NCBI RefSeq assembly: GCF_029318635.1
Contig: NZ_CP119676.1
Location: forward strand, 1,687,001 to 1,751,000
Length of the DNA stretch: 64,000 nt
Direction: 5' to 3'
Origin: Varunaivibrio sulfuroxidans
GTDB taxonomy: Bacteria > Pseudomonadota > Alphaproteobacteria > Rhodospirillales > Magnetovibrionaceae
The position numbers were made by a program, and so were the translations under genes. Positions 7,033 to 64,000 of the stretch are shown in pieces (the first letter of the stretch is position 1; every line of letters begins with the position of its first letter). The notes under the pieces are model-generated. The model was not told where the DNA came from and made no database searches. It worked only from the letters and a program-made list of their open reading frames with translations.

Positions 7033-7091
7033 GTGGACCGACTGCGACGTTTCGCTCCCGCGAACCATCGGGCCGACCATGCAAACCACTA
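7033..7091 (-). mobile_element. Degenerate copy of the CTAG-targeted short element, at the mutM stop codon
   Basis: Read on the minus strand, the mutM stop TAG begins TAGTGGTTTG, the same left end as the elements at 60594 and 61940. A 35-bp segment at 7045-7079 is then identical to 61950-61984, including the small hairpin TTCGC-GGGA-GCGAA. The A+T-rich middle of the full element is missing and replaced by three bases. The far end reads GGTCCAC, close to GATCCAC, but the second CTAG is lost. This looks like an old, internally deleted copy. Confidence 0.7.
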
Positions 7092-7937
7092 GCGTTGCCG
7101 GGTGGCACAGTAAAATGTCGAACGACCGTTTTGAACAATACGCCGAATGCCGCCCGTATGCGAGGGGGTGCATGTACAATCGGGACAGCGTTCGCCCACC
7201 CGCCCGTAAACGGCGAAACGGTGCTGGAAATAGCCCAGTTCCCCGTTGGTCTGGCGGTGATCGCGCAACGACGAGCCGCCGGCGGCGATCGCCTCGGCGA
7301 TCACCGCGCGCACCGCGTCGGCCAGACGCGTCGCCCGCCCGCCCTGTACCGTATGGGCCGAACGGCGCGGCGACAGCCCTGCGCGATAAAGGCTCTCGCA
7401 CACATAAATGTTCCCCAAACCGGCGATGATCGACTGATCCATCAGCGCCGCCTTGATCGAAGTTTTCCGCCCCCTCAGGCGCGCCGCTAGAAACGCGCCA
7501 TCGAACGCCCGATCGGTAGGTTCGGGACCCAACTTCTCCAGCAGAGGATGGCGATCCACATCGGCGGTGGCGCACAGCGCCATCAGGCCGAATCGGCGCG
7601 GATCGCGAAACACCACGCGAACGCCCCGGTCGGTCTCGAAAACGACATGGTCGTGCGCGCCCAAGGGGGTCTTGACATCGGCTTCACCTTCGATACGCAC
7701 CTGACCCGACATACCGAGATGCCAGATCAGCGTTTCGTCGCTCGAAAGATCGACCAGCAAGTATTTCGCACGGCGGCGAACCGCGATCACCCGCGCGTCC
7801 GTGAGGCGAGCGGCGAAATCGTTGGGAAAAGGCTTGCGCAATCCGGCGCGGCGCACGGTAACGCGGCGCAAAACCCGTCCTTCAAGGGACGAAACAAGGC
7901 CACAACGAACGGTTTCGACTTCGGGTAATTCGGGCAT
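7089..7937 (-). CDS. mutM: Formamidopyrimidine-DNA glycosylase
   Basis: 282 residues. MutM removes 8-oxoguanine and formamidopyrimidines and nicks the site by beta,delta-elimination. The N terminus PELPEVETV supplies the catalytic Pro and Glu; the helix-two-turn-helix region includes [16 protein letters not shown]. The C-terminal zinc finger is unusual. Cys are present at about 251, 254, 256 and 277, but the last ligand of the normal FYCPxCQR ending is replaced by Arg (FYCATRQR). The stop codon TAG belongs to the CTAG that starts a short mobile-type element. It is divergent from ubiE with a 45-bp gap. Whether the altered zinc finger still binds metal cannot be judged from sequence. Confidence 0.95.
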
Positions 7938-59854: not shown

Positions 59855-60097
59855 ATGGCCATGGAAGCGGCGGAAATAGAACGCCTAATCAAAGAAGCCT
59901 TCCCCGACGCCGACGTCTTGATCGAAGATCTTCGCGGCGACGGCGACCATTACGCGGCGCGCGTGTTATCCAAGCAGTTCGCCGGAAAAACCCGCGTTCA
60001 GCAACACCAGATGGTTTATGCCGCCTTACAAGGGCGCATGGGCGGCGAACTGCACGCCCTCGGCTTGCAAACCGGCGTGCCCGAGGATAACGCCTGA
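59855..60097 (+). CDS. BolA family protein
   Basis: 80 residues. BolA proteins bind monothiol glutaredoxins through shared Fe-S clusters and help their transfer. The conserved segments are LIKEAFPDADVLIEDLRGDGDHYAARVLSKQF in part and QHQMVYAALQGRMGGELHAL, with the invariant His used for cluster binding. It lies 53 bp upstream of grxD; the bolA-grxD pair is a classical partnership and indicates joint function. The ATG two codons later is an alternative start. Confidence 0.94.
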   Translation: MAMEAAEIERLIKEAFPDADVLIEDLRGDGDHYAARVLSKQFAGKTRVQQHQMVYAALQGRMGGELHALGLQTGVPEDNA

Positions 60098-60150
60098 GAC
60101 GCCCCAAACAAACACACCCTGACACTTATTCCAGACGGAGGATCTCACCG

Positions 60151-60486
60151 ATGAGCGACAATCCCGTTTTCGATCGTATCCAGCAAGAACTCGACGACAA
60201 CCCCGTGGTTCTGTTCATGAAGGGCACGCCGATGTTCCCACAGTGTGGTTTTTCCGCCGCCGTGGTCGGCGCGCTGACCCAAATGCAGGTTAAATTCAAG
60301 GGCGTCAATGTGCTTGAGGATCAAGAGATCCGCGAAGGCATCAAGGCGTTCAGCAATTGGCCGACCATTCCGCAGTTTTACGTCAAAGGCGAATTCGTCG
60401 GCGGTTGCGACATCATCAAGGAAATGTACGAAAGCGGCGAGTTGCAAAAACTTCTCGACAGCAAAGGCATCGCCCACGCCGCCTGA
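60151..60486 (+). CDS. grxD: Monothiol glutaredoxin Grx4
   Basis: 111 residues with the monothiol CGFS active site in MFPQCGFSAAVVGALTQM. MKGTPMFPQ precedes it and FSNWPTIPQFYVKGEFVGGCDI follows, all standard. It binds a bridging 2Fe-2S cluster with glutathione and works with BolA in cluster trafficking and iron sensing. Ends before a strong terminator (60513-60540). The mobile-type element starts about 107 bp downstream. Confidence 0.97.
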   Translation: MSDNPVFDRIQQELDDNPVVLFMKGTPMFPQCGFSAAVVGALTQMQVKFKGVNVLEDQEIREGIKAFSNWPTIPQFYVKGEFVGGCDIIKEMYESGELQKLLDSKGIAHAA

Positions 60487-60512
60487 CGCCCCGCGTGAGA
60501 GTATCCCAATAA

Positions 60513-60540
60513 AAGGCCCGCCTTGAATGAGGCGGGCCTT
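60513..60540 (+). terminator. Rho-independent terminator after grxD
   Basis: A perfect 10-bp stem, AAGGCCCGCC and GGCGGGCCTT, with an 8-base loop followed by CAATTT, 26 bp after the grxD stop. It closes the bolA-grxD unit. Confidence 0.85.
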
Positions 60541-60593
60541 CAATTTGTTAACGCCATGCGCGATCGTCAAAAACATCCGCCCGTGTTCCCTAG

Positions 60594-60690
60594 TGGTTTG
60601 AGTTTAACATTTGAGTCCGATGCAATTGGACACAAATGTGTGAAGAAATCAAACTGCAACAAAAAGATAGATAGTGGTCGGCCCGATCCA
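60594..60690 (+). mobile_element. Short non-coding element, left copy (97 bp), flanked by CTAG
   Basis: The 97-bp element begins TGGTTTGAG, ends GATCCA and lies between CTAG at 60590-60593 and 60691-60694. Its sequence is identical, in reverse orientation, to the element at 61940-62065 except for a 29-bp deletion. Short, non-coding, repeated, at a CTAG target with matching flanks: this fits a MITE. CTAG is a preferred target of IS630-type transposases, which duplicate TA; the flanks fit either a TA or a CTAG duplication. Confidence 0.85.
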
Positions 60691-60694
60691 CTAG

Positions 60695-60986
60695 GGGCAG
60701 GATCTATTAATCTGATGCGCCTTCGGCGCCAGGGATCGCCTGAACCGAGACGTTGCATAACCCCTCGTTGGGCGATTGAAAAATAAAAAATTTGTAGAGG
60801 TTATTCTCCCGTCCAGATGTTCTACAATCCGCGGCGCAACCACAAAAAAGTGGGCTGTCATCGCCCATTGAGCTCAAATGGCGGGAAAATGACGCCGCGA
60901 GGCGTTTAGAGAATCCGAAGCATCTCCGTTCAAGTTTCCAGGACGACTTCCCACCTTGGGTTTAAGCGATTAGGAGCCGAAGACGC
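60695..60986. other. Gap between the left element and the methyltransferase gene
   Basis: No gene or clear terminator is seen in 292 bp. A+T content is higher than the genome average, with a short A-rich stretch at 60779-60795. The region may hold the methyltransferase promoter, but I cannot name boxes with confidence. Confidence 0.3.
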
Positions 60987-61820
60987 ATGCCCTTGCCTAA
61001 GACCGAAAAAGAAGAAACCCGATTTGAGTTTGGCCGCAATTGGCGACGTTTCCTTAATCATCTGAATAACGAACGCATTTCCGAGGCGCAAAAATCGCTT
61101 TCCGGCATGCTTGAGGTCAGCGATTTATCGGGAAAGAGTTTTCTCGATATCGGCTCCGGCAGTGGTTTGTTTTCCTTGGCGGCTCGGCGCTTAGGCGCGA
61201 AGGTCCACTCTTTCGATTACGACCCCCTATCCGTGGCCTGCACGCAAGAGGTGAGGCGTCGATATTTTCCCAACGATCCCGATTGGCGTGTAGAGCAAGG
61301 ATCCGCGCTTGACGGTGAATACATTCGAGCGTTGGGAACCTATGACGTCGTATATTCATGGGGCGTGCTTCATCACACGGGAAAAATGTGGTCGGGGCTG
61401 GAAAATGCGGCCATGAGCGTGCGTGACGGTGGGATTTTGTTCATCGCTATTTATAACGATCAAGGCTGGATAAGTCGTTATTGGTCTTGGGTAAAGAAAA
61501 CGTATAACGCGAACGGCGTCTCGAAGGTCGCGGTGACTGCCGTACACATGCCTTATCTCTTTGGGGCGCGCTGGCTCGTTCGTCTGTTGACAAATCGGCT
61601 CAAGATCGAGCGTGGAATGACGCTTTGGTACGATATGATCGACTGGCTAGGCGGCTATCCATTCGAGGTCGCCACGCGAGAACAGATCGTCGATTTCTAT
61701 ACGGCTCGTGATTTCGAACTGATCGGCGAACAGCTTTGCGGTCGCCGCCATGGCTGTAACGAGTACGTCTTTCGGAAATTACAAAAAACAGCCTCGAAAT
61801 CAACGTCCGAAGTGTCATAA
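60987..61820 (+). CDS. SAM-dependent methyltransferase, lone cargo gene between inverted elements
   Basis: 277 residues. The SAM loop is FLDIGSGSGLFSLAARRLGAKV, followed by the acidic FDYDPLSVACTQEVRRRYF and the catalytic-side segment YDVVYSWGVLHHTGKMW, then DGGILFIAIYNDQGW. The C-terminal third (MTLWYDMIDWLGGYPFEVAT) resembles methyltransferases of polysaccharide and secondary-metabolite loci, so an O- or N-methyltransferase acting on a glycan or small molecule is plausible but unproven. Base composition is lower in G+C than the neighbours. It stands alone between two inverted, almost identical elements (60594-60690 and 61940-62065), a sign of transfer. Substrate unknown. Confidence 0.85.
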   Translation: MPLPKTEKEETRFEFGRNWRRFLNHLNNERISEAQKSLSGMLEVSDLSGKSFLDIGSGSGLFSLAARRLGAKVHSFDYDPLSVACTQEVRRRYFPNDPDWRVEQGSALDGEYIRALGTYDVVYSWGVLHHTGKMWSGLENAAMSVRDGGILFIAIYNDQGWISRYWSWVKKTYNANGVSKVAVTAVHMPYLFGARWLVRLLTNRLKIERGMTLWYDMIDWLGGYPFEVATREQIVDFYTARDFELIGEQLCGRRHGCNEYVFRKLQKTASKSTSEVS

Positions 61821-61939
61821 CGTAAGCCCCCGAAAGACGGAACGATCCCAGGGAGGCGCCGTCAGTGGTGAAGGCGATCGACGGCGGCGGGCGGAGTTCC
61901 GCTCGAATGAGGAATATTTTCTTATTTTACGACGCCTAG

Positions 61940-62065
61940 TGGATCGGGCCGACGTTTCGCTCCCGCGAACCATCGGGCCGACCACTATCTATCTTTTTGT
62001 TGCAGTTTGATTTCTTCACACATTTGTGTCCAATTGCATCGGACTCAAATGTTAAACTCAAACCA
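61940..62065 (-). mobile_element. Short non-coding element, right copy (126 bp), flanked by CTAG
   Basis: This copy is the reverse complement of the left one plus 29 bp. CTAG lies at 61936-61939 and 62066-62069, and flanking GACGC/GCGTC extend the inverted symmetry. The 29-bp module GGTTCGCGGGAGCGAAACGT (with CGGCCCGAT after it) is bounded by two 11-bp direct repeats GTCGGCCCGAT and holds a small hairpin TTCGC-GGGA-GCGAA. The left copy has one GTCGGCCCGAT, as expected after recombination between them. The right CTAG supplies the stop codon of the DUF3501 gene. Confidence 0.85.
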
Positions 62066-62674
62066 CTAGGCGTCATCAAAATCCGACGCCAAGGCCTCCC
62101 GGACGTCGCCACTCACCCGGCTCATATGGCCGTACTGGGGATGTTCGATCGATAGAACCACATCGTTCTTCGGATCGCGAAAGGCGGAGATTTGTTGATC
62201 CGTCAGAGGAAAATGCAAAAATTGGATGGCGGACGCCTTGCCTTCCGCCGTGGTCCGATCGACATCTGTCTCGGCGATGGCGTGCACGCTGTCCGCGCCG
62301 ATACGCAGATAAACGGTTTCCTCGACGCCGCCCAAATCGGCCAAAAAACGGCCTCGGCGCTCGGGGTCGTCGATCTCAAACATCAAAGTCGCGACAAGAT
62401 CGTGTCCTTTTGGGATTAATGGATTATAGGCGCGAAGCTCGTCTTCAATTTGATTTTCGCCCCCCTGCTCAATGTACAACATCTCATGAATTTGATGAAA
62501 CATGGTGTCGTAGCTTTCAAAGTAGAAGGTGGCGTCGGGGCCGACGTGAACGCGCCGATTTTTTTTCAGCGCGCTCATTTCCTTGCGCCGCCGGTCGCGT
62601 TGCTGGGCGTAGGCCGCCATGTTCATGATATCCGCGGGCGTAATCTCGTGTTTATGCATAAGGATGTCTCTCAT
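62066..62674 (-). CDS. DUF3501 family protein
   Basis: 202 residues from the ATG at 62672-62674. The family begins HEITPADIMNMAAYAQQRDRRRKEM and has the segment VGPDATFYFESYDTMFHQIHEML and EDELRAYNPLIPKGHDLVATLM. DUF3501 genes are typically next to Fe-S oxidoreductase (CCG-domain) and rubrerythrin genes. The ATG overlaps the stop of the next gene by 4 bp (ATGA). Its TAG stop lies in the CTAG of the right-hand mobile element; the C terminus ALASDFDDA may or may not be original. Function unknown; a redox or stress role is inferred. Confidence 0.85.
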   Translation of the reverse strand: MRDILMHKHEITPADIMNMAAYAQQRDRRRKEMSALKKNRRVHVGPDATFYFESYDTMFHQIHEMLYIEQGGENQIEDELRAYNPLIPKGHDLVATLMFEIDDPERRGRFLADLGGVEETVYLRIGADSVHAIAETDVDRTTAEGKASAIQFLHFPLTDQQISAFRDPKNDVVLSIEHPQYGHMSRVSGDVREALASDFDDA

Positions 62675-64000
62675 AATCCGTAAGACTTTGCGATCAACTG
62701 AATCGGGTGCTTTTCCACGGTCTGTACTGCTTTTCCCCCCTCGTCCAGCCCTTCCATGCCCTGCAGGATATGGCCACGGGCCAGGGGACATTCGGAGACC
62801 AGAAAGGTCGGTTTCGCCTGCGTCGCTTGGCGAAATACCGGCTTGCCGATTTTCATTCCCACCTCGAAATTTTCGGTGCGCGTACCCCACGCCCCACCGT
62901 GACCGGAACACCGCTCGATCACCGTGATCTTGGTGTCGGGAATAAGACGCAGAAGTTCCGCGCCCTTTTGCCCCATGTTTTGCGCCCGGGCATGACAGGG
63001 GATATGGATGGCGACATCCCCCTGAAGGGGTTTCAGACCTTCGCTCATTCCTTCTTTTTTGGCCATGGCGACCATGTATTCGGCGGCGTCGAAGGTCGCC
63101 TTGGAAAGGTCGGCGATCGCGGCATCGTCGGGTTCGATCAGGGGCCATTCGAATTTGACCATCAGGGCGCACGAGGACACCGGGGCGACGATGTCATAGC
63201 CTTTGGCGATCCACGGCGCGAAGGCCTCGGCGACCCGCTTGGCGCTTTTAGCGACCGCTTCAATATCGCCATGCTCCAACTGCGGCATACCGCAACAACC
63301 GGGATGAATGACTTCGGTCTCGACGCCGTTCCGAGCCAGGACCTTACGCGTATCGAGGACGATATCGGCGCTGTTGTATTCACCGAAACAGGTCGCGTAA
63401 ATCACGGCCTTGCGGCCGAAAGCCGGGGCCTGTTTGTTGACTACGATCGACTGGGCCGCCGCCTGGGCGCTACTGGTCTTGGGCGAGAACGGCGGCAATT
63501 CGGCGTCCTTGTGAACGCCGAGGAGGGCCTGCATGAGCGGGCGGGTGAAGGCGTTGCCGCGCTGCGACGCCCAGTTGGCGAGCGAGGAAAAGGTGCAGCC
63601 TAGCTTTCCGTTCTTGTCGGTCTGGGTCAGCAGAACCTCGCTGCGCGCAATTTTTCCTTGGCGAAACGCCTGGGCGCGCGCGCGCACCATCAAATGGGGA
63701 AAGTCGAGATTAAAATCGTGGGGCGGCACATAGGGACACTTTGTCAGAAAACACATGTCGCACAGGGTGCACGCTTCGACGATCGGGGCGAAATCTTTCG
63801 AATTAACACTGTCCAGTTCGCCGCTTTCGGATTCATCGACGAGATCGAACAGGCGCGGAAAACTATCGCACAAATTAAAACAGCGCCGGCACCCATGACA
63901 AATATCGAAGACACGGCGCAGTTCCACATCCAATTTCTCGGGATCATAGAAATCTGCTTCCCGCCACGCGATCGGATGGCGCGTCGGCGCATCGAGACTG
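62671..64000 (-). CDS. Fe-S oxidoreductase with CCG domains (GlpC/HdrD-like), N terminus cut
   Basis: At least 442 residues; the reading frame is open to the window edge, so the start is missing. The first visible residues are SLDAPTRHPIAWREADFYDP. Two 4Fe-4S ferredoxin motifs follow: CHGCRRCFNLC and CTLCDMCFLTKCPYVP. Two CCG-type domains lie further on, HPGCCGMPQLEHGDIE and ERCSGHGGAWG, as in GlpC and heterodisulfide reductase subunits. Such proteins move electrons to quinones or rubrerythrin-type partners. It overlaps the DUF3501 gene by 4 bp, and the two probably work together; a rubrerythrin gene is expected just outside the window. Confidence 0.88.
   Translation of the reverse strand, partial: SLDAPTRHPIAWREADFYDPEKLDVELRRVFDICHGCRRCFNLCDSFPRLFDLVDESESGELDSVNSKDFAPIVEACTLCDMCFLTKCPYVPPHDFNLDFPHLMVRARAQAFRQGKIARSEVLLTQTDKNGKLGCTFSSLANWASQRGNAFTRPLMQALLGVHKDAELPPFSPKTSSAQAAAQSIVVNKQAPAFGRKAVIYATCFGEYNSADIVLDTRKVLARNGVETEVIHPGCCGMPQLEHGDIEAVAKSAKRVAEAFAPWIAKGYDIVAPVSSCALMVKFEWPLIEPDDAAIADLSKATFDAAEYMVAMAKKEGMSEGLKPLQGDVAIHIPCHARAQNMGQKGAELLRLIPDTKITVIERCSGHGGAWGTRTENFEVGMKIGKPVFRQATQAKPTFLVSECPLARGHILQGMEGLDEGGKAVQTVEKHPIQLIAKSYGL

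Follow-up and report, generated by a model that had tools for sequence, protein, structure and literature searches.

Description of the locus

The window, meaning the whole 64,000-nt stretch of DNA that was analysed, corresponds to positions 1687001–1751000 of the genome contig (C1). The locus comprises grxD (monothiol glutaredoxin), a terminator-like hairpin, a short repeated element, a class I SAM-dependent methyltransferase gene, a second, inverted copy of the element, and a DUF3501 gene on the opposite strand (Table 1).

Table 1. Features of the locus and related features in the window (positions are those of the window)
Feature	Position	Strand	Basis and remarks
Deleted remnant of the same MITE, one of the 59 places	7033..7092	+	Left-end pattern and alignment
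grxD (monothiol glutaredoxin)	60151..60486	+	Glutaredoxin domain tested; gene name from the first-pass annotation
Terminator-like hairpin after grxD	60513..60540	+	Hairpin search
Left copy of the element (MITE)	60590..60694	-	105 bp including both CTAGs (60590–60593, 60691–60694); 29 bp shorter
24-bp end of the second MITE family, f2	60694..60717	+	2 mismatches to the end pattern; reversed control pattern, 0 matches
Methyltransferase, class I SAM-dependent, 277 aa	60987..61820	+	Domain search
Right copy with flanks	61925..62080		Flanks joined at one CTAG form the palindrome GACGC-CTAG-GCGTC, 9/11 positions
Right copy of the element (MITE)	61936..62069	+	134 bp including both CTAGs; full length; minor subtype ATCGG-GCC
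29-bp block absent from the left copy	61943..61971	+	Sequence and alignment of the copies
DUF3501 gene	62066..62659	-	TAG stop codon is part of the right copy's outer CTAG

The methyltransferase gene has a G + C content of 0.516; just 0.8% of 834-bp windows are as low. The segment bracketed by the two copies is likewise poor in G + C (0.523, against 0.612 for the window), as the first-pass annotation had stated. At E 1e-20 the methyltransferase has one match in its own genome and none in 59 related genomes. Elsewhere at least 7999 homologues were scored, the best, apart from the protein itself and among the matches listed, at 75%. No match to solved structures is found at E 1e-5. Assignment as a defence gene was rejected: the match to PADLOC mad2 is partial (E 9e-14, residues 36–192) and probably reflects the shared methyltransferase fold only, and the gene is taken to encode a generic methyltransferase. 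Among the relatives' loci examined, 16 of 17 with grxD have bolA within 1.5 kb of it, and 28 of 29 with DUF3501 have an adjoining iron-sulfur protein gene. Neither a DUF3501 nor a methyltransferase gene is present at any of the 17 grxD loci, and neither grxD nor a methyltransferase gene at any of the 29 DUF3501 loci (41 relatives have a DUF3501 match). grxD and DUF3501 are not adjacent in these loci, and the empty grxD–DUF3501 site that had been proposed as a check was not found among them.

The two copies are near-identical and inverted, as first described. Perfectly complementary arms of 99 nt (60589–60687 / 61972–62070) and 19 nt (60677–60695 / 61935–61953) are detected by inverted-repeat comparison, and the sole difference is the 29-bp block. 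The lengths of 97 and 126 bp given earlier are those of the stretches between the CTAGs. In the right copy the block is bounded by 11-bp direct repeats, ATCGGGCCGAC, whose starts lie 29 bp apart. Because this spacing equals the length of the block, the left copy resembles the product of a simple repeat-mediated deletion in a right-hand form. The f2 end abuts the left copy; the remainder of f2 is absent there.

Copy number and distribution of the element

The 126-bp element occurs at 59 places, some of them partial, in the single-contig genome of 3,066,297 bp (consensus search, E ≤ 1e-4), so the search for further copies that had been proposed was productive. At E ≤ 1e-3, with extra loci from pattern matching added to the consensus search, 62 matches are obtained; BLAST of the right copy against its own genome gives at least 42 (40 of 67 candidates scored). 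With up to 3 mismatches allowed, the right-end pattern matches 56 times in the genome and the left-end pattern 53 times, each with 0 matches for the reversed control. The repeat of the element's ends in this genome is far beyond chance. As is characteristic of a MITE, the element is short (126 bp), present in many copies (59 places) and without a transposase gene.

Fifteen copies match the consensus without change over all 135 positions, and in 42 of the 62 matches the aligned part has an identity of 97% or more; the last burst therefore looks recent. The 97 bp common to the left and right copies are present unchanged in 28 copies, so that gene conversion, suggested earlier from their exact identity, is unnecessary. 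Five matches are older sisters of 74–82% identity: L157, L158 and L159, which are the three beyond the 59, and two of the 59 (in L032, at genome position 1529141, and in L034).

The element is absent from the 59 related genomes, save for one 35-bp match at E 0.003, and no match is found in plasmids or phages. The exact right-end pattern (22 specified bases) has 0 matches in viral contigs and 0 in a set of genome contigs from which the window's own genome was possibly left out.

Target site and junctions

The usual junction has the form CTAG-TGG...CCA-CTAG and is exact at both sides in 43 of the 62 matches. Duplication of the target at the junctions, expected of a MITE, is seen both in these pairs of CTAGs and in unfilled sites within the second repeat family, f2. 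Copies of f2 are 265 bp long, with inverted ends GGGTCAGGACCT, and are mostly flanked by TA; the end pattern matches 72 times in the genome, its reversed control 0 times. Examples in the same genome are L057:997-1261, L058:1030-1294 and L059:1051-1315. L068, L069, L067, L073 and L071 contain very short f2 forms of about 50 bp; these are palindromic and resemble a single f2 end folded back on itself. f2 repeatedly serves as a target: among the loci examined by eye, 3 of 17 paired f2 copies carry the element at an internal CTAG, and the 14 unfilled copies have a single CTAG at that site in 10 cases and a variant in 4. Since nested copies have CTAG on both sides and 10 of 14 unfilled f2 copies have one, the element inserts at CTAG and duplicates it.

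Insertion at TA, preferably within CTAG, is shared with IS630. TA duplication is given for the IS630 family in the work on ISY100 (PMC2170065), and a preference of IS630 for TA within CTAG is named in the title of Tenzen and Ohtsubo (1991), cited in PMC2170065. Two exceptions are informative: CTAT is present on both flanks of the element in L030, and GTAG on both flanks of the IS copy L177. These two exceptional sites, the only ones that bear on the choice, favour duplication of 4 bp rather than of TA alone, the customary target duplication of IS630.

CTAG is scarce. The window contains 25, against about 225 expected from base composition. The 43 copies bordered by CTAG at either end comprise 20 in the TAG stop of a coding-like frame (the right copy, in the DUF3501 stop codon, among them), 2 inside a frame and 21 elsewhere; for 116 other CTAG sites in the stretches examined the counts are 34, 17 and 65. 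The coding-like frames with a copy in their stop codon are left intact. The excess of copies at stop codons, relative to other CTAG sites, is not significant (20/43 versus 34/116, P 0.059), and about 70% of random window positions fall inside coding-like frames. From these comparisons with other CTAGs and with random positions, the placement of the element appears to track that of CTAG, which is depleted in genes. In L028 (genome position 2577981) the element lies at a CTAG that gives a stop codon to two convergent coding-like frames.

Relation to IS630-family insertion sequences

DDE_3 transposase loci from relatives, together with L075 from the same genome, were scanned for the element's ends. 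Such ends border 4 of the 30 loci examined (L119, L121, L134 and L135), in bacteria of the same taxonomic order. L134 and L135 measure about 1.15 kb from CTAG to CTAG. The transposase frame is open in L134; in L135 the transposase is split over two frames. The L134 transposase belongs to NCBIfam transpos_IS630 (NF033545), with 276 bits against a cut-off of 100, and its relatives in genome contigs occupy at least 79 loci (L162–L240). In the 79 loci listed a 5' end is recognised in 73, beginning with CTAGTGG in 72 and with GTAGTGG in one. In 71 of the 79, the flanking CTAG supplies the TAG that stops the transposase frame.

Both ends of the element match those of IS630-family elements of other bacteria, which answers the earlier proposal to look for an IS sharing them. 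Against the best IS630 5' end among the loci listed (L181), the right end has 5 mismatches over the 23 bases that follow CTAGTGG; against the best IS630 3' end (68 ends compared, among the loci listed), the left end has 7 in 23. In 2000 shuffles, mismatches never fell below 9 for the right end or below 8 for the left, so that none of the 2000 was as good at either end. Each end matches a different end of the IS, and the element's own two ends share just GTGG and scattered positions. Given this poor agreement between its two ends, the element can hardly be classed as a textbook MITE with inverted repeats. The possibility that a 13-bp duplication had turned the two ends into one inverted repeat was considered and dropped; the right end matches IS630 5' ends without it. 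Read in reverse, the left end retains a resemblance to the final residues of the transposase (judged by eye, unscored).

No IS with the element's ends is found in the same genome by DDE_3 and DDE_Tnp_1 profile searches. The sole DDE_3 match, at 906876–907301, is an IS630-type element with other ends (L075); its transposase lies in two frames around an A-run, and its ends are GAGCATTTCCCG at CTAG. Cross-mobilisation by this single DDE_3 gene is disfavoured by its different ends but may still have occurred. The sole DDE_Tnp_1 match is broken by an internal stop. Both fall outside the window, in which the two Pfam profiles detect no transposase, in agreement with the first reading of the sequence. 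Because the same DDE_3 profile detects the matching type of IS in relatives, an intact matching IS on the contig should have been seen. The transposase may have been lost, may have been supplied from an unsequenced plasmid, may have acted by cross-mobilisation, or may belong to a family outside DDE_3 and DDE_Tnp_1.

Hairpins and RNA structure

Each end of the element folds alone (fold z-scores: -5.7 for one strand, -6.8 for the other); the shorter left copy has a z-score of -4.6. Among 18 diverse copies, both partners of a pair have changed in 24 cells, where shuffles give 12.1. A structure slid by one column still gives 20 cells, and support for a conserved fold is therefore weak to moderate. 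When two IS ends were folded, the element's end hairpins were not shown in that form. The older sisters L157, L158, L159 and L032 keep hairpin 1. In L157 and L158 the tip of hairpin 2 is quite different yet folds, with a terminator-like CCCGCC...GGCGG. Membership of a structured-RNA family was rejected: 60000–62700 contains three sub-threshold Rfam matches, none on the element.

Interpretation

The element is very probably a MITE shrunk from an IS630-family IS and predicted to be moved in trans, two separate landings flanking the methyltransferase gene. An IS630-type transposase would recognise both ends and join them at CTAG, and the target duplication would rebuild any TAG stop codon at that CTAG. 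The element is predicted to be moved in trans by an IS630-family transposase; the sequenced chromosome has probably lost the source of this enzyme or never had it. The two copies likely landed separately, one on each side of the methyltransferase gene, and a later deletion of 29 bp between the two short direct repeats probably shortened the left copy. Few CTAGs lie within the genes of this genome, so that insertions would fall mainly at the ends of genes or between them; this would explain the tolerance of so many copies. Against an origin by simple internal deletion stands the folding of each end into its own hairpin, which such a deletion does not explain.

The arrangement around the methyltransferase gene was originally read as a composite, MITE-bounded cassette, both copies having moved as a unit and brought the gene into the CTAG that ends the DUF3501 gene. 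Such a move would leave CTAG on both outer flanks, as is observed, and would suit both the low G + C content of the segment and the gene's lack of a match in the 59 relatives. It is unlikely and is not supported, since each copy has its own pair of CTAGs, the spacing is that expected by chance, and the inner and outer flanks of the right copy form one palindrome. For 56 random sites a mean of 1.4 pairs under 1.4 kb is calculated, the probability of at least one being 0.75; two non-tandem pairs (that of the window, 1345 bp, and another of 812 bp) and three tandem pairs are observed. The palindrome, matching at 9 of 11 positions where the next best of 43 sites reaches 5, suggests that the DNA of the methyltransferase side and that of the DUF3501 side were probably continuous before the right copy landed between them. 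The argument is of moderate strength, because 9 of 870 mismatched flank pairs also reach 9/11 after removal of recognised f2 ends; some of these nine are probably leftover f2 ends. The methyltransferase occurs once in the genome, and a piece of f2 lies inside the segment; both count against movement as a unit. A switch in which homologous recombination between the inverted copies flips the segment and alters expression of the methyltransferase is very unlikely. Identity of 99 bp is enough in principle for recombination of the RecA type, and the perfect inverted identity extends over that length with the arms 1.28 kb apart. Yet one orientation is present in one assembly, no sigma-70-like promoter site is found in 60480–62100 with the sigma-70-like patterns searched, and the pair is not special, as 28 copies share the same 97 bp.

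Other readings concern the element itself. Retention as a functional RNA structure at 3' ends (terminator or stabiliser), beyond a tolerated mobile element, is unlikely. Stable hairpins, the stop-codon position of 20 of 43 sites and the location of 19 of the 62 matches between convergent genes (by a crude gene caller with errors, which missed the DUF3501 gene) are compatible with it. The 20 stop-codon sites, however, comprise 8 in the direction of the gene, 11 opposite and 1 common to two genes, so that neither orientation predominates; most copies differ too little from one another to reveal constraint, and CTAG scarcity alone could account for the placement. The separate hairpin at each end (z -5.7 and -6.8) and some paired changes between copies recall a REPIN-like element moved by a Y1 tyrosine transposase (RAYT), an assignment made extremely improbable by ends that match IS630 ends and by nested insertions that duplicate CTAG; a target duplication of the CTAG type is not known for Y1 transposition.

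Derivation from an IS630-family IS is retained as the preferred reading, and an extension of it is put forward tentatively. TAG stop codons might serve as safe harbours: the MITE would enter the CTAG of the stop, the duplication would rebuild the stop and add a two-hairpin RNA tail, and one burst could have re-tailed some twenty genes or more, with the IS630 parents borrowing their stop from the target. That these parents take the stop from the entered target is indicated by the coincidence of transposase stop and flanking TAG in 71 of the 79 loci listed. A literature search of titles and abstract openings, with most subscription journals outside its range, returned no CTAG-targeted MITE in stop codons.

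Significance and comparison with known elements

The element would represent a clean case of a burst of an IS630-derived MITE with no partner IS found in the genome, in which paralogous empty sites, provided by f2, reveal the junctions. It suggests a simple route to low-cost insertion, by way of a target word that is seldom found within genes but occurs at stop codons, and that insertion restores. A gene between inverted MITE copies need not be a cassette.

IS630-family IS (L134, L135, L162–L240) have the same ends and the same CTAG junctions as the element. They differ from it in content: L134 and L135 are about 1.15 kb long and carry a transposase gene, open in L134 and split over two frames in L135, whereas the element keeps the ends alone. 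Nezha, a MITE of cyanobacteria related to ISY100, belongs to the IS630/Tc1/mariner group, as the element probably does; the likeness is one of description. The nearest published kind found is RUP (repeat unit of pneumococcus), described as 107 bp long, present in about 110 copies, with terminal sequences like those of an IS630-family element (IS630-Spn1) and with insertion at TA-containing sites (PMC2229807, PMC3049150). By this description both are short and multicopy, with IS630-like ends and a TA-containing target. The element differs from RUP in its host, in its CTAG target, in a hairpin at each end, in the many copies in TAG stops and in that no IS with its ends is found in the same genome. 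Correia / NEMIS elements of Neisseria are described as small and abundant, with TA termini, and able to affect transcripts (PMC2229807, PMC10969869); their inverted repeats, listed as 24 bp in a table of PMC2229807, are longer than those of the element, and the likeness is again one of description. The MITE itself is new, and its kind is already known.
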